A DNA stretch of 64,000 nucleotides from Phycicoccus flavus (GTDB lineage: Bacteria > Actinomycetota > Actinomycetes > Actinomycetales > Dermatophilaceae). The notes beneath the pieces were generated by a model. It was not told the DNA's origin. It worked only from the letters and a program-made list of their open reading frames with translations, and made no database searches. Both the position numbers and the translations under genes were made by a program. The stretch lies in contig NZ_SAYU02000001.1 in assembly GCF_004025965.2 (NCBI RefSeq), positions 124,001 through 188,000 of the forward strand, written 5' to 3'. Shown piece after piece: positions 25,564-51,752 of this stretch (within the stretch, counting starts at the first letter, position 1; each line of letters starts with the position of its first letter).

Positions 25564-26028
25564 GTGAGCACGACGGTCGACCTCTCCGCGCCCGGACGCC
25601 GGATCGCCGTCGCCGCGGTGCTCACGGCCGCGGTCCTCGGCGTCCTGGACGCCCTCTGGCTGGGCGTGGTCTCGGGGGACCTGTACGCGAGCCAGATCGG
25701 CGACCTCCTCGCCGAGGAGCAGCACGTCGGCGCCGCCGTGGCCTTCTACCTCGTCTACGTCGTCGGGCTCGTCTGGTTCGTCCTGCGCCCCGCCCTGGCC
25801 CGCCTCGACGCCGGGACGGGCGGCATCCGCCGCGCGCTGGTCGACGCCGCACTCTTCGGCCTCGTCACCTACGCGACGTTCGACCTCACCTCGATGGCGG
25901 TCCTCGACGGCTTCCCGCTGCTCGTCGCGGCGGTCGACCTCACCTGGGGCGTCGCGCTCTGCACGGTGACGACCGCCGTCGTCCTCGTCGCGATGAAGTC
26001 CCTCGGGCCGGACGACGCCACCCGCTAG
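25564..26028 (+). CDS. DUF2177 family membrane protein
   Basis: The 154-residue protein has four predicted membrane segments and the DUF2177 pattern DALWLGVVSGDLYASQIGDLL near the N-terminus, LVYVVGLVWFVLRPAL and YATFDLTSMAVL. Its function is unknown. In many bacteria DUF2177 occurs in gene clusters with CFA synthase, DUF1365 and an FAD oxidoreductase, which here begin on the other strand 26 bases past its stop. It probably belongs functionally to that lipid locus although it is transcribed toward it. Confidence 0.87.
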   Translation: MSTTVDLSAPGRRIAVAAVLTAAVLGVLDALWLGVVSGDLYASQIGDLLAEEQHVGAAVAFYLVYVVGLVWFVLRPALARLDAGTGGIRRALVDAALFGLVTYATFDLTSMAVLDGFPLLVAAVDLTWGVALCTVTTAVVLVAMKSLGPDDATR

Positions 26029-26053
26029 TCCGGCCCACCCCGGACCCGGGCGG

Positions 26054-26851
26054 TCAGGCGCGGCGCGGCGGCCGCGGGAAGAACATGCTCGTGCGCTCCA
26101 TGTACTTTGGGTAGCCCGGCCGCTTGGCCATCTCCGACTCCAGCAGCCGCGCCCCGGTGGCGAAGGCGAGGAAGTACGTCATCACCACCGGTGACAGGAC
26201 GGTGAGCACCCCCGGCCAGGCGCCGGCGGCGACCACCCAGAGGCCCCACCAGACGGCGGAGTCGCCGAAGTAGTTCGGGTGGCGCGTCCACGCCCACAGG
26301 CCCCGGTCCATGACCCGGCCCCTGTTCGCGGGGTCGGCCTTGAACGCCTTCAGCTGGGCGTCGCCCACGGTCTCGAACGCGACACCGACGAGCCAGACGA
26401 GCACCCCGAGCGCGGCGACCCAGCCGAGCGCGCTGTCGGTGGCGGCCGCCACCTGGAGGGGCAGCGAGACGAACCACGCCGCGACGCCCTGGGTCCCGAA
26501 GACGCGGACGAGGGCGTAGCGGAAGCGCTCCTCGGGAGGCTTCTGCGACAGCATCTTCTCGTACCGCGGGTCCTCGCCCTGTCCGAGCGCCCGGCCCCGG
26601 ATGTGCCAGGCCAGCCGGCCGCCCCACACCGTGACGAGCACGGCCAGCAACAGCGAGCGCCCGGAGTGCTGACCGACGGCGTACGCCACCCACCCGATGG
26701 CGACGAACACGAGCCCCCAGGTGACGTCGACGACGGCGACCCGCCCGACCCGCCGGGCGACCAGCGCGGTGACCCCCATGGCGAGCGCCGACGTGACGGC
26801 CGACGCCACGAGGACGGCGACGAGGGTGCCCCCGGAGAACCCTCCGTCCAT
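26054..26851 (-). CDS. DUF1295 (steroid 5-alpha-reductase-like) membrane protein
   Basis: This 265-residue polytopic protein ends with the conserved C-terminal signature of the DUF1295/ICMT-like superfamily: DRGLWAWTRHPNYFGDSAVWWGLW and FLAFATGARLLESEMAKRPGYPKYMERTSMFFP. Relatives reduce or methylate lipophilic substrates using NADPH or SAM; the precise chemistry is unknown. The start overlaps the stop of the CFA-synthase-like gene by one base, so the pair is translationally coupled. It likely modifies the product of that methyltransferase or a membrane lipid. Confidence 0.87.
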   Translation of the reverse strand: MDGGFSGGTLVAVLVASAVTSALAMGVTALVARRVGRVAVVDVTWGLVFVAIGWVAYAVGQHSGRSLLLAVLVTVWGGRLAWHIRGRALGQGEDPRYEKMLSQKPPEERFRYALVRVFGTQGVAAWFVSLPLQVAAATDSALGWVAALGVLVWLVGVAFETVGDAQLKAFKADPANRGRVMDRGLWAWTRHPNYFGDSAVWWGLWVVAAGAWPGVLTVLSPVVMTYFLAFATGARLLESEMAKRPGYPKYMERTSMFFPRPPRRA

Positions 26852-28152
26852 CAGCGGGCGGGGTCGGAGACGACGGGTGCACCACCCGGGCGGCGCAGGA
26901 GCAGCTGGTCGACGCCCATCCGGTTGTCCCGGAAGGCCTGCGACCCGCCGACGAGGTACAGCCGCCAGACCCGCGCGCCCTCCTCGCCGATGAGCTCGAC
27001 GGCGCGGTCCCAGTTCTCCTCGAGGGTGGCGTGCCAGGCGTCGACGGTCCACACGTAGTGCTCGCGCAGGGCGTGCACGCCGCGGACCTCGAGCCCGGCG
27101 TCTTGGAGGAAGGTCAGGGTGTCGCCGACCGGGCGCATCGTCATGTCGGGGGCGATGAACTGCTCGATGAACGGTCCGCCGCCGGGGTGGTGACCCCGCA
27201 CGCGCGACATCTGCTGGACGAGGACGTAGCCACCGGGCCGGACGAGGCGGTGCAGCGCCCGCGCGTAGGTGGCGTAGTTCTTCTCGCCGACGTGCTCGCC
27301 CATCTCGAGGGAGGCGACGGCGTCGAACGGCTCGTCGCGGACCTCGCGGTAGTCCTGCAGGCGGATCTCGACCCGGTCCTCGAGGCCGCGCTCGCGGATG
27401 CGGGCGTCGATGAACGCCTTCTGCTCCGCAGCGATGGTGACGCCGGTGACCCGGGCCCCGAAGTGCTCGGCGGCGTAGAGCGACAGCGAGCCCCAGCCGC
27501 AGCCGACGTCGAGGAAGCGCATGCCCTCGGTGAGGCCGACCTTCCGACAGACGAGGTCGAGCTTGGCCGCCTGCGCGTCGACGAGCGGCATCTCCGGGCC
27601 GTCGGCGTAGAAGGCGCACGAGTACGCCAGGTGCGGGTCGAGGAGGAACTCGTAGAACGCGTTCGACAGGTCGTAGTGGTGGCTGATCGAGGCCCGGTCG
27701 CGGGCGAGGGAGTGCAGCCGCCCCTTGACGACGGCCTGCGTCGCGGGCGGGGCGGGCGGGCGGCCCATCGCCCCGGTGTCCCGGGCCAGCCGGACGAGGT
27801 CGGGGAGCAGTCGGGCGACCCGGGCCGGGGTCAGCGGTGGCAGCGAGCGCGCGGCGACGGTCTCGCGGACGAGGTCGAGCACGTCGCCGACCGGGGCGTG
27901 CACCTCGAGCTCTCCGGTGACGTACGCCTGCGCCGCCCCGAGCTCGCCCGGGTGCCACAGCAGCCGCGTGAGGGCCTGCGGGGAGCGCAGCTCGACGAGC
28001 GGTGCGTCCTGCGGTCCGGCCTCGGACCCGTCCCAGGCGCGCAGCCGGACGGGCAGCGGTCCGGCGAGGAGGGGGCGCAGCGCGCTCTCGATGCGGACCG
28101 CCACCCCCGAGGTGGGGGTGGCGGTGGCGGGCACGTGTTCGGTCTGCGTCAT
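26851..28152 (-). CDS. Cyclopropane-fatty-acyl-phospholipid synthase family methyltransferase (first paralogue)
   Basis: The 433-residue SAM enzyme transfers a methylene or methyl group to unsaturated acyl chains of membrane lipids. It has the family block ISHHYDLSNAFYEFLLDPHLAYSCAFY, the SAM motif FLDVGCGWGSLSLYAAEHFGARVTGVT and the SLEMGEHVG motif with the catalytic Glu. Where standard enzymes have a YIFPGG loop, it has FIEQFIAPDMTM, so it belongs to a different subfamily from the second CFA-like enzyme at 31460. AGGAG lies eight bases before the ATG. It is the middle gene of the regulator-methyltransferase-DUF1295 unit. Confidence 0.9.
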   Translation of the reverse strand: MTQTEHVPATATPTSGVAVRIESALRPLLAGPLPVRLRAWDGSEAGPQDAPLVELRSPQALTRLLWHPGELGAAQAYVTGELEVHAPVGDVLDLVRETVAARSLPPLTPARVARLLPDLVRLARDTGAMGRPPAPPATQAVVKGRLHSLARDRASISHHYDLSNAFYEFLLDPHLAYSCAFYADGPEMPLVDAQAAKLDLVCRKVGLTEGMRFLDVGCGWGSLSLYAAEHFGARVTGVTIAAEQKAFIDARIRERGLEDRVEIRLQDYREVRDEPFDAVASLEMGEHVGEKNYATYARALHRLVRPGGYVLVQQMSRVRGHHPGGGPFIEQFIAPDMTMRPVGDTLTFLQDAGLEVRGVHALREHYVWTVDAWHATLEENWDRAVELIGEEGARVWRLYLVGGSQAFRDNRMGVDQLLLRRPGGAPVVSDPAR

Positions 28153-28210
28153 CGGGGCTCCTGTCGACGAGCGGCCGGAGCGCGCGTGCAGGCGGGCACG
28201 GCCGGAGGGG

Positions 28211-29338
28211 TCACGCGTGCGGTTCGGAGTCCGAGCGGGCCTCGGATGTCGCGTGGGCCGCGTGGCCGTTGACGCGCCCGTTCACCGGCTCGGCCTGACG
28301 GCCGTTCACGGACCCGTTGCGCTGCGCGTCGGACCGCTCGCCGTGCTCCTGCTCGACGGCCTCGGACCGCTCGCCGGCCGCGCGGCGCCGCTGCCGGGCG
28401 AACTCGGTCAGCTGCTGCACGTCCGCGACGAGGTCGGGACCGAGGTGGTAGGCGCGGATCTCCTCGAGGATGCGCGGCGTGGTGCCACGACCCGCCACCC
28501 ACACCGGGTGCCGGTCGCCGAGCCGGCGCAGCTCCTTGGCGTGGGCACGGAAGCCGGACGGGCGGCGCGAGGCCAGCACGACGGCGTCGGGGGAGGTGAG
28601 GTCGGCGGCCGCCGTGAGGGAGGCGATCGGGGTGTCCGGGCCGAGGTAGCGCACCCGCCAGCCGGCCCGCCCGAGGAGGACGCCGAAGCTCAGCAGGATG
28701 ATGTCGTGGAACTCGCCCGGGGGGCAGGCGAGGACGGCGACCGGCCCCGTGCCGAGACCCCAGGTCATCGACAGCGCGCCGAGGCGGCGGCGGACGAGGC
28801 TGGAGGCGAAGTGCTCCTGGGCGATGCCGATGCGGCCGAGCTCCCACTGCTCGCCGACCTTGACGAAGAACGGCACGAGGACGTCCACGACCGCGCTCTC
28901 GACCGACCGGTCGAGGAAGGCGGTGTCGAGGACGGCGTGGGCCCGGTCCTCGTCGAGGGCGGTGATGGCGTCGAGGAGCTGCGTGACGAGCATCGGGGGG
29001 TCGACGCGCAGGCTGCCGTCGCCGTTCGCCGCCACGCGCGAGCCGGTGTCGAGACCCGGGTCGTCGCCGTCGGCCTCGCCGGTGGCCTGGGCGCCGGCAC
29101 GCTCGGCCGCGAGGACCTGCCGCGCGGCCTCCATGGCGCTGACGCCCTGGTCGCGCAGCGAGAGGACCTCACGGACGCGCCGCTCGTCGTCGACCCCGTA
29201 GAGCCGGTACCCGCCGGAGGACCTGGAGGGGGTGAGCAACCCGTACCGCGACTCCCACGCACGCAGGACGTGGGTGCTCACGCCGACGCGAGTGGCGAGC
29301 TCGCCAATCCGCATCGATGGAGGAACCGAACGTCTCAT
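28211..29338 (-). CDS. MerR-family regulator with B12-binding photoreceptor domain (CarH/LitR type)
   Basis: This 375-residue regulator has a MerR helix-turn-helix (about 10-78, IGELATRVGVSTHVLRAWESRYG). A four-helix bundle follows with the adenosylcobalamin signature W165-x9-E175-H176 (WELGRIGIAQEH), then a Rossmann B12 domain with lower-ligand His211 in GEFHDIILLSFG, 35 residues after His176 as in Thermus CarH. The C-terminus (about 317-375) is a low-complexity tail. CarH/LitR proteins bind AdoCbl as dark repressor tetramers and fall apart in light. The residue after Trp165 is Glu, not the His reported as light-state ligand in Thermus CarH. ATG 29338 is chosen for its GGAG site. It is likely autoregulated. 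Confidence 0.9.
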   Translation of the reverse strand: MRRSVPPSMRIGELATRVGVSTHVLRAWESRYGLLTPSRSSGGYRLYGVDDERRVREVLSLRDQGVSAMEAARQVLAAERAGAQATGEADGDDPGLDTGSRVAANGDGSLRVDPPMLVTQLLDAITALDEDRAHAVLDTAFLDRSVESAVVDVLVPFFVKVGEQWELGRIGIAQEHFASSLVRRRLGALSMTWGLGTGPVAVLACPPGEFHDIILLSFGVLLGRAGWRVRYLGPDTPIASLTAAADLTSPDAVVLASRRPSGFRAHAKELRRLGDRHPVWVAGRGTTPRILEEIRAYHLGPDLVADVQQLTEFARQRRRAAGERSEAVEQEHGERSDAQRNGSVNGRQAEPVNGRVNGHAAHATSEARSDSEPHA

Positions 29339-29345
29339 GCGCTCC

Positions 29346-29408
29346 ACGGTACGTCTCCGGCGGAGTTTTGACAAACCTTTGACGATCCTGAGCGAAAGGT
29401 TCTACGGT
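29346..29408. promoter_or_regulatory. Divergent overlapping promoters between the CarH-like gene and the lipid operon
   Basis: Minus strand: -35 TTGTCA (29374-29369), 17-base spacer, -10 TACCGT (29351-29346). Plus strand: -35 TTTGAC (29378-29383), 19-base spacer, -10 TACGGT (29403-29408). An inverted repeat AACCTTT (29374-29380)/AAAGGTT (29395-29401) covers the plus -35 and spacer and touches the minus -35: a candidate operator for the B12 regulator. The plus start point would fall close to the ATGs at 29410/29416, suggesting a leaderless mRNA. Box assignments are by eye. Confidence 0.55.
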
Positions 29409-29409
29409 C

Positions 29410-30702
29410 ATGGACATGAGCCCCCTGCACCCCCGGGAGCGCGAGAGCGCCCCCGAGCGCGTCGTCGTGGTCGGGGCGGGGATCTCCGGGCTCACCGCCG
29501 CCCACGTGCTCGCCACCCGTCACGACGTCACGCTCGTCGAGGCGGAGGACCGCCTCGGCGGCCACGCGCACACCCACACGGTGCCGACGGAGCACGGCGA
29601 CCTGCGGGTCGACTCCGGCTTCATCGTCCACAACGACCGCACCTACCCCTACCTGCGACGGCTCTTCCGCGAGCTCGGCGTGCGGACCCACGACACCGAG
29701 ATGTCGATGAGCATCCGCGACGACTCCACCGGCCTGGAGTACGCCGGCGGCCGGGGCGTCAAGGGGTTCGTCGCCCGCCCCCGCCAGCTCCTGGACCGGG
29801 AGTACGTCGGGATGCTGCGGGCGGTCAAGCGCTTCCACGTGCTGGCCAACCGCTTCCTCGACTCCACGGACGACGGCGACACGACGACGTACGGCGAGTT
29901 CATCCGCGAGCACGGCTTCCCCGAGTCCTTCTCACGGCTCTACGCCGTCCCGGTCGTGGCCTGTGTGTGGTCCAGCGGTGAGGGCGACGCGCTCGACTAC
30001 CCGGCGCGCTACCTCTTCCGCTTCCTGCGCCACCACGGGATGCTCCAGGTCGGCGACTCCCCGCAGTGGATGACCGTCGTCGGCGGCTCGCGCAGCTACG
30101 TCGACGAGCTCGCCTCCCGCCTGGACGACGTCCGCAGCGGTGACGCCGTCACCTCGGTCGCGCGCACCCCCGACGGCGTCGAGGTCCGCACGGCCTCGGG
30201 CCGGACCGACCACTACGACCGCGTCGTCCTCGCGACGCACGCGGACGACGCGCTGAAGCTCCTCGCCGACCCCTCGCCCGCCGAGAAGGAGGTCCTCGGG
30301 GCGTTCCGCTACTCGCGCAACGAGACCGTGCTGCACCGCGACGGCTCGCTCATGCCCCGGGCCCGGCTGGCCCGCGCGTCGTGGAACTACCTCGTCGGCT
30401 CCGAGCCCGGAGCCGGCGCGATCGTCACGTACTGGATGAACCGGCTGCAGGGACTCCCGCAGGAGGAGCCGTTCTACGTGACCCTCAACGCGACCGACCG
30501 GATCGACCCCAGTAGCGTCGTCGCCACGATGCAGTACACCCACCCGCTGTACGACCTCGCCGCCGTGCGCGCCCAGGGCCGGATCCCGGATATCACCACC
30601 GAGCGCACGGCGTTCGCCGGTGCCTACCAGGGGTGGGGCTTCCACGAGGACGGCTGCCGGTCGGGGGTCGAGGCGGCGCGGGCGTTCGGGGTGGAGTGGT
30701 GA
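29410..30702 (+). CDS. FAD-dependent oxidoreductase of the CFA-cluster (amine-oxidase-like) type
   Basis: This 430-residue flavoprotein has the dinucleotide fold VVVVGAGISGLTAAHVL, then EAEDRLGGHAHTH and, near the end, FAGAYQGWGFHEDGCRSGVEAA, which closes the FAD site. It is the COG2907-type NAD/FAD protein regularly found with DUF1365 and CFA synthase, thought to oxidise, saturate or desaturate a lipid or isoprenoid intermediate; the substrate is not established here. It is the first gene of a plus-strand operon, starting at 29410 or 29416 (MSPLHP). Its stop overlaps the next start by four bases. Confidence 0.88.
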   Translation: MDMSPLHPRERESAPERVVVVGAGISGLTAAHVLATRHDVTLVEAEDRLGGHAHTHTVPTEHGDLRVDSGFIVHNDRTYPYLRRLFRELGVRTHDTEMSMSIRDDSTGLEYAGGRGVKGFVARPRQLLDREYVGMLRAVKRFHVLANRFLDSTDDGDTTTYGEFIREHGFPESFSRLYAVPVVACVWSSGEGDALDYPARYLFRFLRHHGMLQVGDSPQWMTVVGGSRSYVDELASRLDDVRSGDAVTSVARTPDGVEVRTASGRTDHYDRVVLATHADDALKLLADPSPAEKEVLGAFRYSRNETVLHRDGSLMPRARLARASWNYLVGSEPGAGAIVTYWMNRLQGLPQEEPFYVTLNATDRIDPSSVVATMQYTHPLYDLAAVRAQGRIPDITTERTAFAGAYQGWGFHEDGCRSGVEAARAFGVEW

Positions 30703-31463
30703 CCGCCTCCGTCACGGCCGCGGACCTGCCCACGCTGCCCGCCCTCGTCGTCGGCCGGGTGCACCACGTCCGCCACCGTCCGCTGCACCACGCCTTCACC
30801 CACCGGCACACCCAGTGGCTCGTGGACCTCGACGCGATGCCCCGGCTGCCCCGGGCGCTGCGCTGGGCGGCGACCTTCCGCGGCGAGGACCACCTCTCCG
30901 GCAACCCGGGCATCGCGGCGCTCAAGGCCAACGTGCTGAGGGTGCTCGAGCGCGACGGTCTCGCGACGACGGCGCGGGACCGGGTCGTCATGCTCGCCCA
31001 CGCCCGGGTCCTCGGGCACGTCTTCGACCCCATGAGCGCCTTCTGGGTCTTCGCGCCCGACGGCGCCCTGCGCGGCGTGCTCGTCGAGGTGCACAACACC
31101 TACGGCGGGCGGCACGCCTACGTGCTCCGCCCGGACGCCGCCGGCCGCGACGACGTGGACAAGGACTTCTACGTCAGCCCCTTCAACGACGTCGAGGGCT
31201 CGTACGCCATCCGCCTCACGATGAGCCCGCAGCGGGTCGGGGTGGCCATCCGGCTGCGGGTCGGCGACGAACCACTGGTGACCGCGACCGTCTCCGGGAC
31301 CCCCCGACCGGCCACGACCGCCCAGGTGGCCCGGAGCGCGGTGCGCGACCCGTTGATGCCCCAGCGGGTGAGCGGGCTCATCCGGGTCCACGGCATCTGG
31401 CTGTGGCTGCGGAGGCTGCCCGTCCGCCCCCGCCCCGAGACCAGCCTGGAGAGTGTGCGATGA
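30699..31463 (+). CDS. DUF1365 family protein
   Basis: The 254-residue protein matches DUF1365: VVGRVHHVRHRPLHHAFTHR at the N-terminus, ARVLGHVFDPMSAFWVF, VLVEVHNTYGGRHAYVL and KDFYVSPFNDVEGSYAIRL. The function is unknown, but DUF1365 is tightly linked across bacteria to the FAD protein and CFA synthase on either side. It has no signal peptide. GTG start and stop both overlap neighbours by four bases, giving a translationally coupled trio. Confidence 0.9.
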   Translation: MTASVTAADLPTLPALVVGRVHHVRHRPLHHAFTHRHTQWLVDLDAMPRLPRALRWAATFRGEDHLSGNPGIAALKANVLRVLERDGLATTARDRVVMLAHARVLGHVFDPMSAFWVFAPDGALRGVLVEVHNTYGGRHAYVLRPDAAGRDDVDKDFYVSPFNDVEGSYAIRLTMSPQRVGVAIRLRVGDEPLVTATVSGTPRPATTAQVARSAVRDPLMPQRVSGLIRVHGIWLWLRRLPVRPRPETSLESVR

Positions 31464-32704
31464 CCGCCGACACCCCGCGACTCGAGCTCGCGACCCCGCG
31501 ACTCGGCTTCCCCCGCGTCCTCACCCGTGGCGCCGTCGCCAAGGCGATCACCGAGGTCGCCGTCCGGCCCATGCCGGTGCGGATGCGCTACCCCGACGGC
31601 ACGGTCGTCGGCGACGGCGGGCCGGACAGCCCCGTCCTCGACGTCGTCAGGCCGCGGGCGATGTTCCGCCGCCTCGAGGCCCACCCCAAGATCGGACTCG
31701 GCGAGGCGTACATGGCCGGCGACTGGCGCGCGGGGGAGGGCACCGACCTCGCCGAGGCGCTCATGCCCTTCGCCGCGCGGATGGGCGAGCTCGTGCCCAA
31801 GCCGCTGCTGTCCCTGCGCGGCCTCGTCGACCGGGCCATCCCCAAGACCATGCGCAACACCCTCGAGGGCTCGCGCAGCAACATCAGCGCCCACTACGAC
31901 CTGTCCAACGACCTCTTCGCCGCGTTCCTCGACCCGTCGATGTCCTACAGCTCCGCGCTGTTCGACCCGGCGCTCCCGGTGCGCGAGCAGGACCTGCACG
32001 AGGCGCAGGTCCGCAAGGTCGAGTCCATCCTCGACGCCGCCGACGTCCGCGCCGGCAGCCGCGTCCTCGAGATCGGCACCGGCTGGGGCGAGCTCGCGAT
32101 CCGGGCCGCCGCCCGCGGCGCCACCGTCACCTCCGTCACCCTGTCGGCCGAGCAGCGCGACCTAGCGCTGCGGCGCATCGAGGCCGCCGGCCACGCCGAC
32201 CGGGTCCAGGTCCTCCTGCAGGACTACCGCGAGACCACCGGCGAGTTCGACTCCATCGTCAGCGTCGAGATGATCGAGGCGGTCGGCGAGGAGTACTGGG
32301 AGGCCTACTTCGCCAAGATCGACGAGCTGCTCGCCCCCGGCGGCGCCGTCGCCATCCAGGCCATCCTCATGGAGCACCACCGGCTGCTGGCCACCAAGGG
32401 CAGCTTCGGGTGGATCCAGAAGTACATCTTCCCCGGTGGTCTCATCCCCTCGCTCCAGGCGATCAAGGACGTGACGCGTGACGGCACCTCCTTGCGGGTA
32501 GAGCGGGTGCAGGCTTTCGGCGCCGACTACGCCGAGACGTTGCGCCGCTGGCGCGAGACGTTCACCGACCGGTGGGACGACATCTCGCGGCACGGTTTCG
32601 ACGAGACGTTCCGCCGGATGTGGGAGTTCTACCTCGCGTACTGCGAGGCGGGGTTCGCCACCGGGTACCTGGACGTCGCCCAGATCCGTCTCTCCAGGAG
32701 GTAA
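31460..32704 (+). CDS. Cyclopropane-fatty-acyl-phospholipid synthase family methyltransferase (second paralogue)
   Basis: The 414-residue enzyme has the classic CFA-synthase layout: an N-terminal lipid-binding domain (about 1-125), ISAHYDLSNDLFAAFLDPSMSYSSALF, the SAM motif VLEIGTGWGELAIRAAARGATVTSVTLS, SVEMIEAVGEEYW with the catalytic Glu, and the IQKYIFPGGLIPS loop. It should transfer a methylene group to cis double bonds of phospholipid acyl chains, protecting membranes. It is closer to canonical CFA synthases than the paralogue at 26851. It is co-expressed with the FAD and DUF1365 genes, whose proteins may process the same lipid. Confidence 0.92.
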   Translation: MTADTPRLELATPRLGFPRVLTRGAVAKAITEVAVRPMPVRMRYPDGTVVGDGGPDSPVLDVVRPRAMFRRLEAHPKIGLGEAYMAGDWRAGEGTDLAEALMPFAARMGELVPKPLLSLRGLVDRAIPKTMRNTLEGSRSNISAHYDLSNDLFAAFLDPSMSYSSALFDPALPVREQDLHEAQVRKVESILDAADVRAGSRVLEIGTGWGELAIRAAARGATVTSVTLSAEQRDLALRRIEAAGHADRVQVLLQDYRETTGEFDSIVSVEMIEAVGEEYWEAYFAKIDELLAPGGAVAIQAILMEHHRLLATKGSFGWIQKYIFPGGLIPSLQAIKDVTRDGTSLRVERVQAFGADYAETLRRWRETFTDRWDDISRHGFDETFRRMWEFYLAYCEAGFATGYLDVAQIRLSRR

Positions 32705-32707
32705 TGC

Positions 32708-33139
32708 ATGTCGACGACCGTCGAACGCACGATCCACACGACCGCGGCGCCCGAGGTCGTCTTTCCCTACCTCGTCGACTTCCGCAACGCGACGGAGTGG
32801 GACGCGGGCACCGAGTCCTGCGAGCGGGTCTCCGGTGACGGTGGGGTCGGGACGAAGTACAAGAACGTCTCGAAGTTCGCCGGCAACACCGTCGAGCTCG
32901 AGTACACGACCGAGGAGGTCGCCGAGCCGACCTTCAAGATCACCGGGCGCAACGACACGACGGCGAGCCACGACACGATCACCGTCGAGCCGGACGGCAC
33001 CGGGTCCAAGGTCACCTACCGCGCGGACTTCGAGTTCAGCGGCATGGCCCGGTTCCTCGGCCCGGTGATGACCCCGCTGCTGGAGCGGCTCGGCGACCGG
33101 ACGGCCGCCCAGCTCAAGGAGGCTCTGGACAAGCGGTGA
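32708..33139 (+). CDS. SRPBCC family lipid/ligand-binding protein
   Basis: The 143-residue START-like protein has the sequence VERTIHTTAAPEVVFPYLVDFRNATEWDAGT, then a central strand series (VELEYTTEEVAEPTFKITG) and a C-terminal helix ending LKEALDKR. It probably binds a hydrophobic molecule of the lipid pathway. AGGAGG sits four bases before the ATG and overlaps the end of the CFA gene, and its stop overlaps the next start by four bases. Confidence 0.85.
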   Translation: MSTTVERTIHTTAAPEVVFPYLVDFRNATEWDAGTESCERVSGDGGVGTKYKNVSKFAGNTVELEYTTEEVAEPTFKITGRNDTTASHDTITVEPDGTGSKVTYRADFEFSGMARFLGPVMTPLLERLGDRTAAQLKEALDKR

Positions 33140-34152
33140 GCGGAGACGGAGGCGCGGGTCGCCGCGCACTGGTCACCGGGTCGACGGGCTACATCGGCTC
33201 GCGGCTCGTCCCCGCCCTGCTCGACGAGGGCTGGACGGTCCGGGTGCTCACCCGCAGCGCCGACAAGGTGGCCGAGCGGGCGTGGGTGGACCGGGTCGAG
33301 GTCGTCGAGGGCGACGCGACGTCGCGGATCTCCCTCGACGCCGCGCTCGCCGACGTCGACGTGGCGTACTACCTGCTGCACTCGATGGACAGCGAGGGCG
33401 GCTTCGTCGAGCGCGACCGGGAGATGGCCCGCGGCTTCGGCCGGGCGGCCTTCGAGGCCGAGACCTCGCGCATCGTCTACCTCTCCGGGCTGCACCCGGA
33501 CGGCAAGCTGAGCAACCACCTCGCCTCGCGCGTCGAGGTCGGCGACCTGCTCATGGCCAGCGGGGTGCCGACGGCGGTGCTGCAGGCGGCCGTCATCGTC
33601 GGGTCCGGCTCGGCGTCCTTCGAGATGCTGCGCCACCTCACCCGGCGGCTGCCGGTCATGCTCACCCCGAAGTGGCTCGGCAACCGGATCCAGCCGATCG
33701 CCGTGCGCGACGTGCTGCACTACCTCGTCGGGGCGGCCGACCTACCGCCCGAGGTCAACCGGACGCTGGACATCGGCGGCGACGAGGTCCTCACCTACCG
33801 CGAGATGATCACCCGCTTCGCCCGGCTGTCCGGGCTCATGCGCCGGACCATCGTCACCGTGCCGGTCCTGACCCCGAGCCTGGCCAGCCACTGGGTCGGC
33901 TTCGTGACGCCGGTGCCGACCGGGCTGGCCCAGCCCCTCGTCGAGAGCCTGCTGCACGAGGTCGTCTGCCACGAGCACGACGTCGAGGACCTCATCGGCC
34001 CCCCGCCCGGCGGGCACCTGTCCTTCGACCGGGCGGTGACCGACGCCATCGCCGGGGACGACGCCGACCCGTTGCCCGAGCCCGGGACCACCGACCCCGC
34101 GCACATCACGGCGGCCGACCCCGCGTGGGCCGGAGGCGGCGCCGGATCGTGA
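33136..34152 (+). CDS. NAD(P)H-binding (atypical SDR/NmrA-like) protein
   Basis: The 338-residue Rossmann protein begins with ALVTGSTGYIGSRLVPALLDEGWTVRVLTRSADK, followed by VEGDATSRISLDAALADVDVAYYLLHSM and IVYLSGLHPDG. The fingerprint is that of complex-I-NDUFA9-like/NmrA-type atypical SDRs, which often lack a full catalytic triad and may bind NADPH only. It carries an in-line DUF2867-free C-terminus. The role in the lipid operon is unknown; quinone, terpene or lipid reduction is possible. Confidence 0.85.
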   Translation: MSGDGGAGRRALVTGSTGYIGSRLVPALLDEGWTVRVLTRSADKVAERAWVDRVEVVEGDATSRISLDAALADVDVAYYLLHSMDSEGGFVERDREMARGFGRAAFEAETSRIVYLSGLHPDGKLSNHLASRVEVGDLLMASGVPTAVLQAAVIVGSGSASFEMLRHLTRRLPVMLTPKWLGNRIQPIAVRDVLHYLVGAADLPPEVNRTLDIGGDEVLTYREMITRFARLSGLMRRTIVTVPVLTPSLASHWVGFVTPVPTGLAQPLVESLLHEVVCHEHDVEDLIGPPPGGHLSFDRAVTDAIAGDDADPLPEPGTTDPAHITAADPAWAGGGAGS

Positions 34153-34195
34153 CGGCCGCCGGGACCAGGTGCGGCCTCCGCCGCGGGGGGACGCC

Positions 34196-34918
34196 GTGAA
34201 CCCGGTGGGAGAGCTGCGCGCCTTCGTGCGGGCGGCCCTCGTCGACCCCGTCCCGCGCGACCACAGCCAGCCGGACTCGGCCTTCCGTCGCCGGCGGGTC
34301 GTCGCGGCGGTCACGCTGCTCCTCGGTGCCGGGCTGCTCGGCTGGGCCCTGCGCATCGAGCCCGGTGACCCCGCCTTCTACGTCGCGACCTTCGCCCTGG
34401 CCGCCGTGTGGGCCGTCGGCGCCTTCGCCTCGGGTCCGCTGCACCTCGGGCATGCCCACACCCGCGACGGCCGGGCGGACAGCCGGGCCGTCGTGCAGTC
34501 GCTGATGCTGGGCCTCGCGCTGCTCGGGCTCTTCCTGCTCGGGGCGGTCGTCGTCGCGCAGGTGCCCTTCCTCCGCGACCCGGTCCAGCAGCTGCTCGAC
34601 CACGCGCAGTACGGCTCGCTGCTCGTCGTCGCGGCCATCACCGCCGTCAACGGCGTCGCCGAGGAGCTGTACTTCCGCGGCGCCCTCTACGCCGGGGTGG
34701 GCCGACGGCACGCGGTGGCCGTGACGACCGTCGTCTACGCGCTGGTCACCGCCACCTCGCTCATCCCGCTGCTCGTCCTCGCCGCCGCGCTCGTGGGGCT
34801 CGTCGTCGGGCTGCAGCGCCGGGTCACCGGCGGCATCCTCGGGCCGATCGTCACCCACCTCACCTGGTCGCTGGGCATGCTCTTCCTCCTCCCGCCCGTC
34901 CTGGACCGACTCTCCTGA
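34196..34918 (+). CDS. CPBP-family intramembrane metalloprotease-like protein
   Basis: The 240-residue polytopic protein contains the CPBP (Abi/CAAX) signature: EELYFRG (EExxxR) in the first motif and a His in IVTHLTW in the last, with about six membrane segments. Members process prenylated or small membrane peptides or have immunity roles, and many are unassigned. The GTG start follows GCGGGGGGACGCC, a strong ribosome site. It sits between the NAD(P)H-binding protein and the photolyase, 13 bases before the latter. Confidence 0.83.
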   Translation: MNPVGELRAFVRAALVDPVPRDHSQPDSAFRRRRVVAAVTLLLGAGLLGWALRIEPGDPAFYVATFALAAVWAVGAFASGPLHLGHAHTRDGRADSRAVVQSLMLGLALLGLFLLGAVVVAQVPFLRDPVQQLLDHAQYGSLLVVAAITAVNGVAEELYFRGALYAGVGRRHAVAVTTVVYALVTATSLIPLLVLAAALVGLVVGLQRRVTGGILGPIVTHLTWSLGMLFLLPPVLDRLS

Positions 34919-34931
34919 GAGGCGCCCCCGC

Positions 34932-36296
34932 ATGACCTCCGTCCTCTGGCTCCGGCGCGACCTGCGCCGCCGTGACCACCCCGCTCTGCTCGCCGCGCGC
35001 GACGCCGCCGGCGACGGTGACCTCGTCGTCGCGTTCGTTGTCGACCCCCGGCTGTGGGAGGGCGGCGGGCCCGTCCGCAAGGCCTGGCTGGCGGCCAACC
35101 TGCGCGCCCTCGACGAGTCGCTCGACGGCAACCTCACGCTGCTGCACGGCGACCCCCGCACGGTGGTGCCCGAGCTCGCGTCGCGGGTCGAGGCGTCCTC
35201 CGTGCACGTCACGCGCGAGACCACGCCGTCCGGGGTGCGCCGCGACGAGGCGGTGAAGAAGGCGCTGGAGGGCGACGACGTCGAGTGGGTCGAGACCGGC
35301 ACGCCCTACGCCGTCGGACCCGGCCTCGTCGTCAACGGGTCGGGGGAGCCGTACAAGGTGTTCACCCCGTTCTCCAAGGCCTGGCGGAAGCACGGCTGGC
35401 CGGACCCGGCGTCGACCCCGCGGACGCTGCCGCTGCGGCACGCCCGCAACGACGCCGACGCGACGAAGGCGCTGGACGACGCCCTGTCGGCGTCCGACCT
35501 GCCCGACCTGCCGGCGCCGGGGGAGGAGGCCGCGCTGCGCCGCTGGCGGTCCTTCCGCGACGAGGACCTCGCCGACTACGACGGGCAGCGCGACGACCCC
35601 GCCGCCGACGCGACGTCGCGCATGTCGGCCTACCTCAAGCTCGGGGTCGTGCACCCGCGCACGCTGCTGCACGACATCGCCGACCGGTCCGGGAACGACG
35701 TCGAGACCTACCGCGACGAGCTCGCCTGGCGCGAGTTCTACGCCGACGTCCTGCACCAGAACCCCAGGAGCGCCTGGCACGACCTGCGGCCGATGTCCGG
35801 CATGCGCTACGACGAGCCCGAGGACGCCATCGAGGCGTGGAAGAAGGGCGAGACCGGCTACCCCGTCGTGGACGCGGGCATGCGCCAGCTGCTCGCCGAG
35901 GGCTGGATGCACAACCGGGTGCGGATGATCACCGCGAGCTTCCTCACCAAGGACCTCCACGTGTGGTGGCCGGTCGGGGCGCGACACTTCCTCGACCACC
36001 TCTGCGACGGCGACCTCGCGTCGAACAACCACGGCTGGCAGTGGGTGGCCGGCACCGGGACCGACGCCTCGCCGTACTTCCGGGTGTTCAACCCGGTGAC
36101 CCAGGGGCAGAAGTTCGACCCGTCCGGCGAGTACGTCCGCCGCTGGGTCCCCGAGCTGAGGCACCTGTCCGGCAAGGCGGCGCACGAGCCGTGGGAGCAC
36201 GAGGACGGGTACGCCCACGGCTACCACGAGCGGATCGTCGACCACAAGGAGGAGCGCCAGGAGGCGCTGGACCGGTACGAGAAGACCCGCCGCTGA
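34932..36296 (+). CDS. phrB: Deoxyribodipyrimidine photo-lyase
   Basis: The 454-residue flavoprotein repairs UV-induced cyclobutane pyrimidine dimers using light. The N-terminal antenna domain starts VLWLRRDLRRRDHPAL; the FAD domain has the motifs RMSAYLKLGVVHPR, ELAWREFYADVLHQNPRSAW, TGYPVVDAGMRQLLAEGWMHNRVRMITASFL, DLHVWWPVGARHF and DGDLASNNHGWQWVAGTGTDASPYFRVFNPVTQ. All residues typical of class I CPD photolyase appear present. Its place at the end of the operon under a B12 light-sensor supports light induction. Confidence 0.95.
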   Translation: MTSVLWLRRDLRRRDHPALLAARDAAGDGDLVVAFVVDPRLWEGGGPVRKAWLAANLRALDESLDGNLTLLHGDPRTVVPELASRVEASSVHVTRETTPSGVRRDEAVKKALEGDDVEWVETGTPYAVGPGLVVNGSGEPYKVFTPFSKAWRKHGWPDPASTPRTLPLRHARNDADATKALDDALSASDLPDLPAPGEEAALRRWRSFRDEDLADYDGQRDDPAADATSRMSAYLKLGVVHPRTLLHDIADRSGNDVETYRDELAWREFYADVLHQNPRSAWHDLRPMSGMRYDEPEDAIEAWKKGETGYPVVDAGMRQLLAEGWMHNRVRMITASFLTKDLHVWWPVGARHFLDHLCDGDLASNNHGWQWVAGTGTDASPYFRVFNPVTQGQKFDPSGEYVRRWVPELRHLSGKAAHEPWEHEDGYAHGYHERIVDHKEERQEALDRYEKTRR

Positions 36297-36379: not shown

Positions 36380-36409
36380 TTGGGGAAATGCGGGCGCCCC
36401 CCGTATCCT
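36380..36409 (+). promoter_or_regulatory. Candidate promoter of the terC gene
   Basis: A -35-like TTGGGG (36380-36385) and a -10-like TATCCT (36404-36409) are separated by 18 bases. The start point would be about 36416, just before the riboswitch. Weak by-eye assignment; it lies 84 bases past the photolyase stop. Confidence 0.4.
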
Positions 36410-36417
36410 GGACCCAG

Positions 36418-36540
36418 ACGAGGGGAGTACTTCCCAAGTCCGCTCCGGTCAGTACGGACGCCCCACGGCGGCCCCGGTGCGGCGCCGCCCCCGGGCGGTG
36501 AAGGAGACCTCAGGACCGCAACGTCGTGCCCTGAGGAGCA
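36418..36540 (+). promoter_or_regulatory. yybP-ykoY-type manganese riboswitch upstream of terC
   Basis: The aptamer's conserved GGGGAGTA (36422-36429) and the matching GGAGACCTCAGG (36503-36514) occur at the expected ends, with a GTCAGTACGGACGCCCC arm between. P1 pairs GAGG (36420-36423) with CCTC (36508-36511). The same CCTCAGG (36508-36514) can instead pair with CCTGAGG (36529-36535), which overlaps the ribosome site GAGGAG (36533-36538) nine bases before the terC ATG. Aptamer formation would free the site, so Mn2+ should switch translation on, as in known members that control Mn2+ exporters. Confidence 0.8.
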
Positions 36541-36544
36541 TCCG

Positions 36545-37609
36545 ATGTCCTTCCCCTCCACCCTCCTGACCGCGGCCGAGCCCGCCGCCGCCGAGCAGTC
36601 CGTCGGCACCCCGATGCTGTGGGCCGTCACCATCGCCGGCGTCCTCGCGATGTTCGCCCTCGACTTCGTCCTCACCCGCAAGCCGCACGAGGTGTCGATG
36701 AAGGAGGCCGCCGGCTGGTCCGCCTTCTACATCGCGCTCCCGCTGCTGTTCGGCGTCTTCGTGTGGACGCAGTACGGCGGGGACCGCGGGCTGGAGTACT
36801 ACACCGGCTACCTCGTCGAGAAGTCGCTGTCGGTCGACAACCTCTTCGTCTTCATGCTCCTGCTCGCCGCCTTCGCGGTGCCCGACGCGCTCAAGCAGCG
36901 GGTCCTGCTCATCGGCGTGGCCGGGGCCCTGGTGCTGCGCGGCATCTTCATCGCCGTCGGCGCCCAGCTCATCGCGATGTTCTCCTGGACCTTCCTGCTG
37001 TTCGGCGTCATCCTCCTCGCGACCGCGGTCAAGGTGCTCAAGGACGCGATGTCCGACGAGGACGAGGCCGTCGACATCGGGTCGCTGCGCACGGTCAAGG
37101 TGCTGCGGCGATTCTTCCCCGTCACCGAGGACTACCGCGGGCCGAACCTCACCGTCCGCGAGGCCGGCAAGCGCGCGCTGACGCCCCTGGGGCTCGTCGC
37201 CGTCGCCATCCTCGGCACCGACATCGTCTTCGCCGTCGACTCTGTGCCCGCGGTGTTCGGCATCACCGGCGACGCCTACCTCGTCTTCGCGACGAACGCC
37301 TTCGCGCTGCTCGGGCTGCGGGCGCTCTACTTCGTCCTCGAGGGGCTGCTCGGGGCGCTGCGTCACCTCGGGTTCGGCCTCGCGGCCATCCTCGCGTTCA
37401 TCGGCGTCAAGCTCGTCCTGCACTGGGCGCACGGCATCTGGCCGGGCACCCCGGAGGTCCCGACGCTGGCCTCGCTCGGCGTCATCGTCGGCATCCTCGG
37501 GCTCGTCACCGTGACGAGCCTCTTCGCCAACCGGCGCGACCGCGTGGCGCAGGCGATCCAGGAGCCGGAGGGCACCCCGCCGGAGACGGTCGACTCCGAC
37601 CGCTCCTGA
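36545..37609 (+). CDS. TerC-family membrane protein (putative manganese exporter, Alx type)
   Basis: This 354-residue protein has about nine membrane segments and the TerC/Alx signatures EKSLSVDNLFVFMLLL and GTDIVFAVDSVPAVFGITGD, whose acidic residues bind metal. N-terminal residues 1-20 form a short cytoplasmic or periplasmic arm. Members such as Alx and MeeF/MeeY are linked to Mn2+ efflux or metalation of exported proteins. The riboswitch in the leader, with its conserved GGGGAGTA, gives an independent reason to call this a manganese protein. Confidence 0.92.
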   Translation: MSFPSTLLTAAEPAAAEQSVGTPMLWAVTIAGVLAMFALDFVLTRKPHEVSMKEAAGWSAFYIALPLLFGVFVWTQYGGDRGLEYYTGYLVEKSLSVDNLFVFMLLLAAFAVPDALKQRVLLIGVAGALVLRGIFIAVGAQLIAMFSWTFLLFGVILLATAVKVLKDAMSDEDEAVDIGSLRTVKVLRRFFPVTEDYRGPNLTVREAGKRALTPLGLVAVAILGTDIVFAVDSVPAVFGITGDAYLVFATNAFALLGLRALYFVLEGLLGALRHLGFGLAAILAFIGVKLVLHWAHGIWPGTPEVPTLASLGVIVGILGLVTVTSLFANRRDRVAQAIQEPEGTPPETVDSDRS

Positions 37610-45541: not shown

Positions 45542-47115
45542 CGTGTTCCTTCCGTGGTGCGGTCGGACCCGCGCCGGCGCAGCGCGCCGACGAGCTCGTC
45601 GAGGCGTACCTGTCGTCGCACGAGCACGAGGCTAGCCGCGTGCGCGAGGAGGCCGCCGACCGCGACCAGGACCGTGACGGTCTCGCCCGCGCCGAGGGTC
45701 GCGGCGACCCCGAGCGGCAGGCCGACGGTGGCGGCGGCGACGGCCGCCGCGACGAGGGCGGGCCGTCCGATCGCCCACACCCCGAGCCGGGCCCGGACGA
45801 CGGCGACGTAGGCGGCGCTCTCGACGACGAGGGCGACCCCCCAGGCCACGGCGGCGCCGAGCGCCCCGTGGTCGGGGACGAGCAGGAAGATGAGGACGAG
45901 GTTGCTCGCGAGGGCCAGCAGCGACACCCCGAGCCCGAGCGCGCTCCAGCCGGCCATGAGGACGAGGGACTGCGCCGGCCCGACGAGCGACGGGACGAGC
46001 ATGGCCAGCGCGACGGCCGTGAGCGCGGGTGCCCCGGCGACGAAGCCCTCGCCGAAGAGCCGGAGCACCGTGACGCTGGCCGCCGCGAGGACGAGGTAGC
46101 CGGGCCAGGCGAGCGCGGCGATCCAGCCCGACCCGGTCTGGTGCAGCCGGCGGACCCCGGCGACGTCGTCGCCGGCCAGCAGGCCCGCGATGTTCGGGGC
46201 GACGACGATGCGGACCGCCTGCCACACGAGCATGCCCGCGAGGGCCAGCCGGTTGACCGCGCCGAAGAGGCCGGCCTCGGACGCGCCGGCCAGCCGCCCG
46301 ACGAGGGTGACGCCGATGCTCAGCGTGAGGATCTCGACCGCCTGGGCCACGGCGCGCGGCAGGGTGTAACGCCACAGCGCCCGCGCCGAGGACTCGTCGG
46401 GGACGTCGGCCGCGGCCGTCACCGCGTCGCCCGCCGCGGACTCGGCGTGGCCGAGGCGCCGCCGCAGGACGAGCACGGAGACGACGATGCCGACGGCGAC
46501 CGGCGCGGCCCACGCGACGGTGACCCCGAGGACGCCCGGCAGCAGCAGCGCGAAGGCTCCGACGAGCACCACCCGCAGCACGGGCTTGAGCACCTGGTCG
46601 ACGAGGACGAGCGTGCGGATGTCGCCGAGGCCGCGCAGCAGCGCCAGCAGGACGACGGTGAGGGTCTGGGCGGGCACGAGCACCGCGAGCGCGACGACCG
46701 AGGCGACCGCCCCCGCCGTCCGGTCCGAGCCGCCGAGCGCCGCCCGCGCCACCTCGGGCGCGAGCAGCGCGACGGCCACTCCGGTGAGGACGGTGAGGAC
46801 GAGGACGGGGGCGGTGAGCCGCCAGGCGACGGACCGCACGTCGCGCACCCGGCCGAGGGCGACGAGCCGGGCCGCGACCCGGACCGACGTCGTGTCGGTC
46901 CCGAGCTTGAGCACGGTCGTGGCGATGGTGAAGAGCGAGGTGAGGACGAAGACGACACCGGCGCCGGCCGTCCCCAGGGTGCGGCCGGCGGCGACGGTGA
47001 AGGCGAACCCGGCGAGGGCGGACACGACCGCCCCGATGCCTGTCAGCGCACCGGCGCGGGCCACCTGCCGGGTCACGGGCGAGGACGACGACGCCGCGGC
47101 CGGCCGGGTGCTCAC
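45538..47115 (-). CDS. Oligosaccharide flippase (Wzx-like, MOP superfamily)
   Basis: The 525-residue protein has about fourteen membrane segments and the polysaccharide-transporter layout, beginning VARAGALTGIGAVVSALAGFAFTVAAGRTLGTAGAGVVFVLTSL, with an arginine-rich loop after TM6 and the central repeat RYTLPRAVAQAVEILTLSIGVTLVGRLAGASEAGLFGAVNRL. It should flip lipid-linked repeat units across the membrane. GTG start overlaps the end of the ligase gene by four bases and its stop overlaps the sulfotransferase start. Confidence 0.88.
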   Translation of the reverse strand: MSTRPAAASSSSPVTRQVARAGALTGIGAVVSALAGFAFTVAAGRTLGTAGAGVVFVLTSLFTIATTVLKLGTDTTSVRVAARLVALGRVRDVRSVAWRLTAPVLVLTVLTGVAVALLAPEVARAALGGSDRTAGAVASVVALAVLVPAQTLTVVLLALLRGLGDIRTLVLVDQVLKPVLRVVLVGAFALLLPGVLGVTVAWAAPVAVGIVVSVLVLRRRLGHAESAAGDAVTAAADVPDESSARALWRYTLPRAVAQAVEILTLSIGVTLVGRLAGASEAGLFGAVNRLALAGMLVWQAVRIVVAPNIAGLLAGDDVAGVRRLHQTGSGWIAALAWPGYLVLAAASVTVLRLFGEGFVAGAPALTAVALAMLVPSLVGPAQSLVLMAGWSALGLGVSLLALASNLVLIFLLVPDHGALGAAVAWGVALVVESAAYVAVVRARLGVWAIGRPALVAAAVAAATVGLPLGVAATLGAGETVTVLVAVGGLLAHAASLVLVRRQVRLDELVGALRRRGSDRTTEGTR

Positions 47116-48617
47116 GCGGGCACCGCGGGCCGGTCGACGGTGGCGGGGGCGGGCCGCAGACCGGTGCCGCCGCGGCCGTCCGGACCCACGCGGTCGACGG
47201 CGCGGGCCGCCGTCCCGAGCACGAGGCCGAGCATCGTCCACGCCATCGGGATGAGGTAGGGGTTGGTGTAGTTGACGTCGATCATCCCGTGCACCGCCAC
47301 CCCGCCGAGCAGTGCGCCGAGCAGGGCGAGGGTGGTCCGCACCTGCCGCGCCCGGGCGGCGGTGGCCTCGTCCCCGGACTCGGCGGCGAGGTCGCGCGCC
47401 GTCCGCAGCGCCCCGAGGGAGCGTCGCGTCACGTGGATGGCCACGCCGGTGACGACGGCGAGGGCCAGCACGCCGAGGACCCCGGTCTCGGCGGCGAGGT
47501 CGAGCGGGACGGAGTGGGCGTGGATGTACGGGCGCCGGACGAGCAGCGGCGAGGCGCCGCTGGCGACGTCGGCGAAGGTGCCGGGTCCCTGGCCGAGGAG
47601 GGGGTGCGCGAGCCAGGTGCGGAACGCCTCCGCGTAGATGACCGGGCGGTCGTCCTGGGGGTTGGGCACCCCGCCGGTCAGCGTCCCGAACCGGGAGGCG
47701 AGCAGCCCGAAGGGCGGGACGGACAGGGCCGCCCCGACGCCGGCCAGCACGAGCCCGCCGCCGGCCACCGGCACGACGCGACGCAGGAGCGTCGGCGCGA
47801 GCAGGCAGGCGAATGCGACGAGGGCCATCGCCCCGATCCACGAGCCCCGCGAGAAGGACAACCCCAGGCCGGCGAGGCCCACGATGAGGCCGACGGCGCC
47901 GATGACCCGGTCGGCCCGGCGGTCGGCGGCCACGGTCAACGCCCAGGCCACCCCGATGCAGTAGAGGGAGAACTCGCCGAAGTCGTTCGGCTGGGCGAAG
48001 ACGCCCTGGGCCCGGTCGGTGACGACGGCACCGCCGAACCGGGCGGACCCGGCCGCGGCGGCGGGCAGGTTGGGCAGGAGCACGACGAGCGAGGCCAGCG
48101 TCCACAGCCGCAGCACCTCGCGCAGCCAGGCGTGCGAGCGGCGCGCGACCATCGCGGCGGCCACGCAGACGAGCAGGCCGAGCACGTGGTTGACCGAGAC
48201 CTTGAGGCTGCGGAACGGGTCGATCGAGGTCAGGGTCGCGAGGAGCAGCGCCGCGACGAGCACGCCCCCGACCGCCACGGTGAGCGGGGGGAGGGGCACC
48301 TGTCGGCGGAGGACGGCCAGGGCGACGACGGCGATGACGGCGACGAGGAGGAGGTGGATGACCTGGGCGCCCTGGGCCCCCGGGATGTCCCGCAGGGCGA
48401 CGGGCGCCGCCAGCAGGGGGACGGCGATGGCCACGGAGGCCCGCCGGGTGACGACGGCCGCGACGACGACGAGGGCCACGCCGAGGAGGGCCACGACCGG
48501 TCCCTGCCAGACGACGACGGCCACGACGAGCAGGGGGAGCAGGACGGCGGCGCTCGCGGTCACCCAGGTCGAGGCGCGCGAGGCGTCCGGCAGGATCGGG
48601 ACGCGGTCGTCGCTCAC
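47112..48617 (-). CDS. O-antigen ligase/polymerase (Wzy-type) membrane protein
   Basis: The 501-residue protein has about twelve membrane segments and the O-antigen ligase-like block ending GLSFSRGSWIGAM and the periplasmic loop TWLAHPLLGQGPGTFADV...RPYIHAHSVPLDLAAETGVLGVLAL, whose HxHS and ETG motifs are typical of WaaL/Wzy-domain proteins. It polymerises lipid-linked oligosaccharide on the outer face of the membrane. It is coupled by four-base overlaps to the glycosyltransferase upstream and the flippase downstream. Confidence 0.88.
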   Translation of the reverse strand: MSDDRVPILPDASRASTWVTASAAVLLPLLVVAVVVWQGPVVALLGVALVVVAAVVTRRASVAIAVPLLAAPVALRDIPGAQGAQVIHLLLVAVIAVVALAVLRRQVPLPPLTVAVGGVLVAALLLATLTSIDPFRSLKVSVNHVLGLLVCVAAAMVARRSHAWLREVLRLWTLASLVVLLPNLPAAAAGSARFGGAVVTDRAQGVFAQPNDFGEFSLYCIGVAWALTVAADRRADRVIGAVGLIVGLAGLGLSFSRGSWIGAMALVAFACLLAPTLLRRVVPVAGGGLVLAGVGAALSVPPFGLLASRFGTLTGGVPNPQDDRPVIYAEAFRTWLAHPLLGQGPGTFADVASGASPLLVRRPYIHAHSVPLDLAAETGVLGVLALAVVTGVAIHVTRRSLGALRTARDLAAESGDEATAARARQVRTTLALLGALLGGVAVHGMIDVNYTNPYLIPMAWTMLGLVLGTAARAVDRVGPDGRGGTGLRPAPATVDRPAVPA

Positions 48618-51696: not shown

Positions 51697-51752
51697 GGGT
51701 TCCCTCTCTGGCCCCGGGCATCGACACCCGTCGGCCCACGTCGGCTAGTCGT

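Follow-up and report, generated by a model that had tools for sequence, protein, structure and literature searches.

The window analysed here is a stretch of 64,000 nucleotides from the 4.26 Mb, 153-contig genome of Phycicoccus flavus (G000:C1:124001-188000). It contains, at 25564-36296, a MerR-family regulator of the CarH/LitR type flanked by lipid and photolyase genes. On balance we read this locus, with some reserve, as a LitR-repressed operon that is released by light and would provide a furan fatty acid together with photorepair of DNA. The genes, their order, the fold and conserved residues of the regulator and a conserved operator are shown by computation. An earlier note on this DNA had described a B12 light-sensor locus controlling lipid methylation and photolyase; its observation is confirmed, and its interpretation is partly supported and sharpened.

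The divergent locus and its predicted operator

Two gene runs diverge from a short intergenic region at ~29339-29415. The leftward run, on the minus strand, begins with litR (28211-29338), encoding 375 amino acids (aa) from the ATG at 29338 in an open reading frame (ORF) that stays open to 29374. It continues with CFA1, an S-adenosylmethionine-dependent enzyme of a second subfamily resembling cyclopropane fatty acid (CFA) synthase (26851-28152, Pfam 263 bits), and ends with a steroid-reductase-like DUF1295 membrane protein (26054-26851, Pfam 234 bits). The rightward run, on the plus strand at 29416-36296, consists of seven tightly packed genes with intergene gaps of -4, -4, 3, -4, 16 and 13 bases. 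Its first three genes, all recognised by Pfam, encode a UfaD-like FAD oxidoreductase of the flavin amine-oxidase type (29416-30702), a UfaO-like DUF1365 protein (30699-31463, 211 bits) and CFA2, a UfaM-like fatty acyl methylase (31460-32704, 288 bits). An ATG at 29410 is also possible for UfaD; the one at 29416 is conserved across seven close loci.

The litR-ufaD intergenic region contains TTGACAAACCTTTGACG at 29368-29384 on the plus strand. This is a tandem 11-bp direct repeat of the CarH operator type (TTGACA-N5-TTGACG), and we predict that it is the LitR operator, which upholds as a sequence-based prediction the tie that the earlier note drew between LitR and the lipid and photolyase genes. 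CarH binds tandem 11-bp nnnnTnnACAn repeats, one of which may include the -35 element (PMC9304148). The window site has this tandem TnnACA arrangement as sequence, with TnnACG in its second repeat. That second repeat is the predicted -35 element (TTGACG, 29379-29384) of the plus-strand run, in a putative promoter at 29379-29408 with an 18-base spacer and a -10 element TACGGT (29403-29408), read from the sequence and from a LitR-anchored alignment. Across seven close loci in this alignment, which spans one clade, 17 of 17 motif columns were invariant compared with 20 of 54 flanking columns; with two more distant relatives added, the figures were 16 of 17 and 14 of 54. The single perfect match to the pattern TNGACAAACNTTNGAC in the 4.26 Mb searched was the window site. 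Allowing up to two mismatches gave 19 matches in the genome compared with 5 for the reversed pattern. Up to three mismatches gave 3 in the window compared with 3.25 in shuffles; since this loose count equals the shuffle expectation, only the perfect match is counted.

To place the operator in relatives, we used the best 80 of 581 confirmed loci, picked by DUF1365 similarity. The order UfaD-DUF1365-CFA2 was found in 76 of the 80; CFA2 was not found in two of the others and UfaD in another two, and in all four the DUF1365 match lay at a contig end or no more than ~1 kb from it. For LitR and the operator, 77 loci were scored: LitR lay at most 1.6 kb away in 25 and at a greater distance in 4, and 48 had none in the stretch read. 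The operator core was present upstream of ufaD in 23 of the 25, in none of the 4, and in 3 of the 48, with one more of the 48 carrying it on the opposite strand. Two of those three have a possible explanation. In P. elongatus Lp2 (L177), LitR apparently lies elsewhere, beside a photolyase gene with its own operator (L098, G068), and L170 carries a LitR helix-turn-helix (HTH) fragment; the third is L204. A Fisher test of 23/25 against 3/48 gave p of about 1e-13, which we do not use as proof because shared ancestry inflates the contrast. On a tree of UfaD (n=77), the LitR state changes at least five times. In a second set of 14 loci, window included, with LitR at most 700 bases from ufaD, the strict tandem pattern was found in 8 and a looser one in 11. 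The tandem pattern was found in none of 5 loci with LitR further off and in none of 15 without LitR; background windows contained it in 21 of 2417, counting the ufaD operators themselves.

Behind the first three genes, the plus-strand run continues, again with Pfam assignments, with an SRPBCC protein of the polyketide cyclase or lipid transport type (32708-33139), an NmrA-type NAD(P)-binding protein (33136-34152), a CPBP (Rce1-like) membrane protein (34169-34918) and a DNA photolyase with FAD_binding_7 and DNA_photolyase domains (34932-36296). A DUF2177 membrane protein (25564-26028, plus strand, Pfam) neighbours the locus just past DUF1295, and every gene named in the earlier note is thus accounted for. 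Most frames were chosen by the contrast between GC content at third and second codon positions; DUF1295, CFA2 and DUF2177 were missed there and are based on Pfam. TerC (36380-37609) comes after the photolyase and is retained in Phycicoccus relatives; it is not counted in the system because wider evidence is wanting. Elsewhere in the window, 45640-51739 contains long overlapping ORFs with odd codon-position GC and strong AT skew, and a minus-strand ORF there (48614-51739) has glycosyltransferase domains.

The sensor and the enzymes

LitR has a MerR HTH domain and a four-helix bundle with Wx9EH (Pfam MerR_1 and B12-binding_2, 55 bits each), followed by a Rossmann domain with EFHDII that carries the lower axial His. 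These are features of class I CarH. The model of LitR has a mean predicted local distance difference test (pLDDT) score of 86.4, with 92-98 across most of the B12 domain, and its best fold matches are to Thermus thermophilus CarH. Full-length chains give a large root-mean-square deviation, and the B12 domain alone fits at ~2.2 A over ~196 columns. Sequence and fold thus bear out the CarH/LitR relationship. W131, E141, H142 and H177, which surround the adenosyl group and cobalt, were kept in 59 of 59 LitR rows including the window, at least five loci occurring twice among these rows; in a set of 28 LitR, they are four of 17 invariant columns. The genome also encodes cobalamin adenosyltransferase and other B12-domain proteins. 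Class V LitR of Micrococcales are described as having no B12-binding domain (PMC9758184), and this class was ruled out for the window regulator, whose B12-binding domain is present by Pfam and fold. A second type of LitR was seen at loci where SRPBCC lies between litR and ufaD (L147, L149, L150, L152, L159, L166, L169, L171, L176, L180, L182 and L184). In this type the Glu of the ligand motif is replaced by A, G, V or T, while W, EH and the ligand His are kept.

Methylated furan fatty acids are made on phospholipid by UfaD, UfaO and UfaM, of which UfaO contains DUF1365; the ring oxygen derives from O2 (PMC7380195). The chemistry was solved for the α-proteobacteria Rhodobacter sphaeroides and R. 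palustris (PMC7380195), and the D-O-M order in the window is that of RPA2571-2570-2569 in R. palustris, judged by locus numbers. Since the first three genes of the plus-strand run match UfaD-UfaO-UfaM, they are a strong candidate for the furan fatty acid pathway, with the products predicted from sequence. The earlier note had guessed at furan fatty acids, which this match supports; it had also called the chemistry of the trio not established, which holds for this lineage but not for the R. sphaeroides and R. palustris homologues (PMC7380195).

The residues of CFA2 point in the same direction. At E. coli positions 240 and 266 it has Ala and Gln, respectively, in 78 of 78 rows, window included, and at 139 Ser or Ala in 77 of 78; Glu239 (78/78) and Tyr317 (77/78, one gap) are retained. 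Trio-linked CFA genes from outside (Azospirillum, Aeromonas, Rhodococcus, Tsukamurella) share this pattern. CFA1 of the window has Cys139, His240 and Gln266, and CFA1-type rows have His240, Gln266 and Met268 in 17 of 17. At positions 240/266, which are active-site histidines in E. coli CFA synthase, CFA2 is therefore A/Q and CFA1 H/Q. A true cyclopropane synthase was ruled out for both CFA1 and CFA2, as neither has His266. Beyond the actinobacteria, the genes go with other sensors: in Azospirillum (trio) and Qingshengfaniella (UfaD and DUF1365 only) their neighbours are a sigma factor together with a cupin or a ChrR protein, and the Aeromonas trio adjoins a MerR gene and phrB. In Aeromicrobium, two loci have a gene for a fatty acid desaturase upstream of ufaD and in its orientation (L154:490-1959, L156:6952-8610), separated from it at L154 by one small gene; this desaturase would supply an unsaturated chain. 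Two PF00487 desaturases are encoded elsewhere in the genome of the window.

We infer that the plus-strand run is read as one transcript under repression that depends on light and adenosylcobalamin (AdoB12). In the dark, a CarH-like repressor would sit on the two tandem 11-bp repeats overlapping the ufaD -35 element and keep the operon off. Light would strip the adenosyl group from the bound B12 coenzyme, LitR would release the DNA, and the operon would be expressed. UfaM would then methylate the unsaturated chain of a membrane phospholipid, UfaD would desaturate the methylated chain and UfaO would insert an oxygen derived from O2, giving a methylated furan fatty acid, while the photolyase would repair DNA. 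Furan fatty acids scavenge singlet oxygen. The roles of CFA1, DUF1295, SRPBCC, NmrA and CPBP in the proposed system are putative.

Competing explanations

Several results weigh against this reading, and those on the sensor come first. The B12-binding Pfam match of LitR is borderline (29.7 bits in the protein scan and 32.4 in the genome search, cut-off 32.1), and LitR scores 136 bits with the NCBIfam CarH equivalog, whose cut-off is 400. The full class I motif is D/ExHx2G/P - SxT/V - GG (PMC9304148). In the window LitR, Gly180, SxT/V and GG are lost, reading I, A.R and AG, so that of the B12 signature claimed earlier the four adenosyl and cobalt residues stand and the rest is eroded. Position 180 is I in 9, V in 2, M in 1, A in 16, P in 12 and G in 19 of the 59 rows, and GG is kept in 14. 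The eroded positions presumably line the nucleotide tail, as in methionine synthase. The residue after Trp is His132 in Thermus and Glu in the window LitR; with Glu there, no bis-His light state would be expected. As the motif is eroded beyond the four residues, LitR is, by sequence, a CarH variant whose B12 pocket is unusual, rather than a proven class I CarH.

It is thus possible, though we consider it improbable, that LitR is no longer a B12 sensor and, with a degenerate tail pocket, answers a partner protein or products of singlet oxygen while governing the same operon. Class II LitR with a LOV (light, oxygen or voltage) partner provide a precedent (PMC9758184), and the same clade has a conserved CarH-type B12-domain protein with no HTH. 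The invariance of the four residues in all 59 rows is hard to explain by such a sensor if it holds no corrinoid. The HTH-less protein (G000:C20:24-788, L106) is 254 aa long; Pfam recognises both B12 domains in it but no MerR domain. Homologues with 75-86% identity occur in five other clade genomes (G001, G053, G083, G044 and G079); among the matches listed from 99 genomes, none elsewhere exceeded 44%. With a LitR HTH query, five of the six stretches read showed no match at E up to 0.1, and the sixth (L269) had a 29-residue match (E 0.012) ~1.5 kb from the domain; two LitR loci used as controls gave E 8e-42 and 3e-30. The genomes with this protein are those in which position 180 of LitR is Ile or Val, a co-occurrence that shared ancestry may explain.

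The absence of carotenoid genes claimed earlier is true locally, but the genome's one phytoene synthase match and an adjoining lycopene cyclase gene lie on contig C70. These genes were seen next to a photolyase-related (DPRP) gene (G000:C70:21500-40500, L107). Local operator control of them was set aside, as no tandem TnnAC(A/G) site occurs in the 19 kb read there; control from a distance is conceivable. Across ten genomes, TNGACAAACCTTNGAC with up to one mismatch gave 39 matches including the litR sites, compared with 0 for the reversed control. A triple-repeat pattern with up to two mismatches gave 15 matches, some overlapping, in 7 of the 10, compared with 0. Among the genes downstream of these wider sites is one for a small secreted protein in G000, G053, G079 and G092; in the three genomes checked for this (G000, G053 and G079) it diverges from a LigD-type polymerase gene. 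Others encode DUF4193 (in G000, and in G001 by eye), DUF6458 (in G000, and in G083 by eye), a Ser/Thr kinase (in G000 and G053) and TspO (in G068). The sites may be used by LitR or by another regulator.

The small secreted protein ends in YPWC(G), and its gene is preceded by CarH-like repeats at G000:C79:15537 (L113, L132) and in G053 (L248), G079 (L233, L253) and G092 (L242, L254); the adjoining gene in G000, G053 and G079 is the LigD primase-polymerase. A similar site occurs in G044 (L252), and the G044, G079 and G092 sites have three to four repeats. An imperfect three-repeat site precedes the DUF4193 gene (G000:C1:200356-200383; L129, L256), as does a similar site its likely counterpart in G001 (L236). 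A rather speculative extension, to which we give little weight, is that the clade has a remodelled or split sensor driving furan lipids and DNA repair, with further sites such as that before the LigD-type polymerase. LitR, which keeps the adenosyl and cobalt side of the pocket without the classic nucleotide-tail motif, might then respond to an adenosylated corrinoid whose lower base is different or missing, or might divide the sensing with the HTH-less protein.

On the enzymes, window UfaD, UfaO and UfaM are 42, 33 and 44% identical to those of Azospirillum and 48, 49 and 54% to those of Rhodococcus; the α-proteobacterial relatives compared come from Azospirillum and Qingshengfaniella. The UfaO model (pLDDT 90.7) had no confident PDB match: among the 50 hits listed, the best had E 0.007 and none a template modelling (TM) score above 0.42, with weak lipocalin- or nitrobindin-like barrels included. 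As these matches are weak, no mechanism is claimed from them. Another product, such as a 10-methyl, cyclopropane or methyl-branched unsaturated lipid, is conceivable but unlikely in our judgement. The substrate may have its double bond at another position than in R. sphaeroides, additions or reductions could come from the second CFA-like enzyme and DUF1295, and identities to the two α-proteobacterial relatives are 33-44%. The furan pathway is favoured over this by the three enzymes in order, including DUF1365, the maker of the furan step in R. sphaeroides (PMC7380195), and by a CFA2 that has neither His of CFA synthase.

The remaining adverse results concern the link between LitR and the trio. 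LitR was not found in the stretch read at 48 of the 77 scored trio loci. Ten of the 46 listed nearest upstream genes at LitR-less trio loci were scanned and included one LysR, one fatty acid desaturase and no recognised LitR; upstream LysR genes were also noticed by eye. The LitR-operator link amounts to 4-5 independent switches, four pairs being on well-supported branches, and a sign test was not significant. The operator pattern misses two LitR-linked loci (L158, L200), and near matches precede unrelated genes. A chance neighbourhood, in which LitR governs itself and one neighbour and the lipid and photolyase genes are passengers, would fit a trio that often occurs without LitR, and two relatives (L105, L108) with litR-SRPBCC-NmrA-CPBP and no trio found in the contig read. 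We regard it as very improbable. The comparative genomics proposed earlier was run. Within the best 80 of 581 loci, the named relatives nearest to the window at this locus belong to Phycicoccus avicenniae, P. endophyticus and P. jejuensis. Five Phycicoccus-type genomes that were read with wide flanks (L070/L135, L071/L139, L072, L137, L138) all retain the genes from DUF1295 through the photolyase, so the arrangement is more than a chance neighbourhood. DUF2177 is present in three of the five and was not found in L071/L139 and L137. Other genera show these partners again in changed orders, with litR divergent from ufaD, photolyase (L098) or SRPBCC (L103, L105, L108, L109), and the motif stays by litR, preceding whichever gene diverges. 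The gaps of at most 16 bases in the plus-strand run also argue for a unit. Of 297 genomes searched within the order, 33 contain DUF1365.

Relation to known systems

The literature searched, with partial coverage and few subscription papers, describes no actinobacterial LitR-furan locus. The parts are known elsewhere, but the sensor has an unusual B12 pocket. If our reading is true, actinobacteria with a patchy but recurrent distribution would make singlet-oxygen-scavenging furan fatty acids, some of them under light control. The work provides an exact predicted operator, a gene set and named strains, and the natural series of LitR with changed B12 pockets could show which pocket parts are needed for light sensing. 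Other studies border on the locus: a furan fatty acid from Agrococcus was studied in 2022, the available text reporting no UfaO-like enzyme in that strain (PMC9323897); crt genes of several Micrococcales adjoin a MarR regulator, CrtR (PMC6739363); and in Vibrio cholerae a MerR protein and ChrR take part in the blue-light response, in which genes of the photolyase family and of CFA type go up (PMC5241685).

CarH/LitR of Thermus thermophilus, Bacillus megaterium and Myxococcus share with the window LitR the MerR HTH, four-helix bundle and Rossmann fold, Wx9EH, the lower-ligand His and the 11-bp TnnACA direct-repeat operator over the -35 element. The window LitR differs from them in its neighbours, which are lipid and photolyase genes and not crt genes, and in its motif, where Ile replaces Gly/Pro of ExHx2G/P, Ala-x-Arg replaces SxT/V and AG replaces GG; it also has no His after Trp. 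Class II LitR (PplR/PmlR) of Pseudomonas putida and P. mendocina is likewise a LitR-family regulator with phrB, an FAD oxidoreductase, a short-chain dehydrogenase and ufaM, and in P. putida it is reported to govern 19 light-induced genes including phrB and ufaM (PMC9758184). It has only the four-helix bundle and a LOV protein partner, whereas a full cobalamin-binding fold is predicted for the window LitR. The R. sphaeroides RSP1091-1087 operon with ufaM, raised in a chrR mutant, and R. palustris RPA2571-2569 have the same UfaD, UfaO (DUF1365) and UfaM, and unlike the window no LitR is named there. DUF2177, which adjoins the window locus, also occurs in the ChrR-type UfaD-UfaO run of Qingshengfaniella (Rhodobacterales). 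For the furan genes of R. sphaeroides, the sensor is the RpoE/ChrR pair for singlet oxygen. The litR-crt locus of Streptomyces coelicolor has an actinobacterial LitR, as the window does, and light induction, which is proposed for the window; its output is carotenoid.

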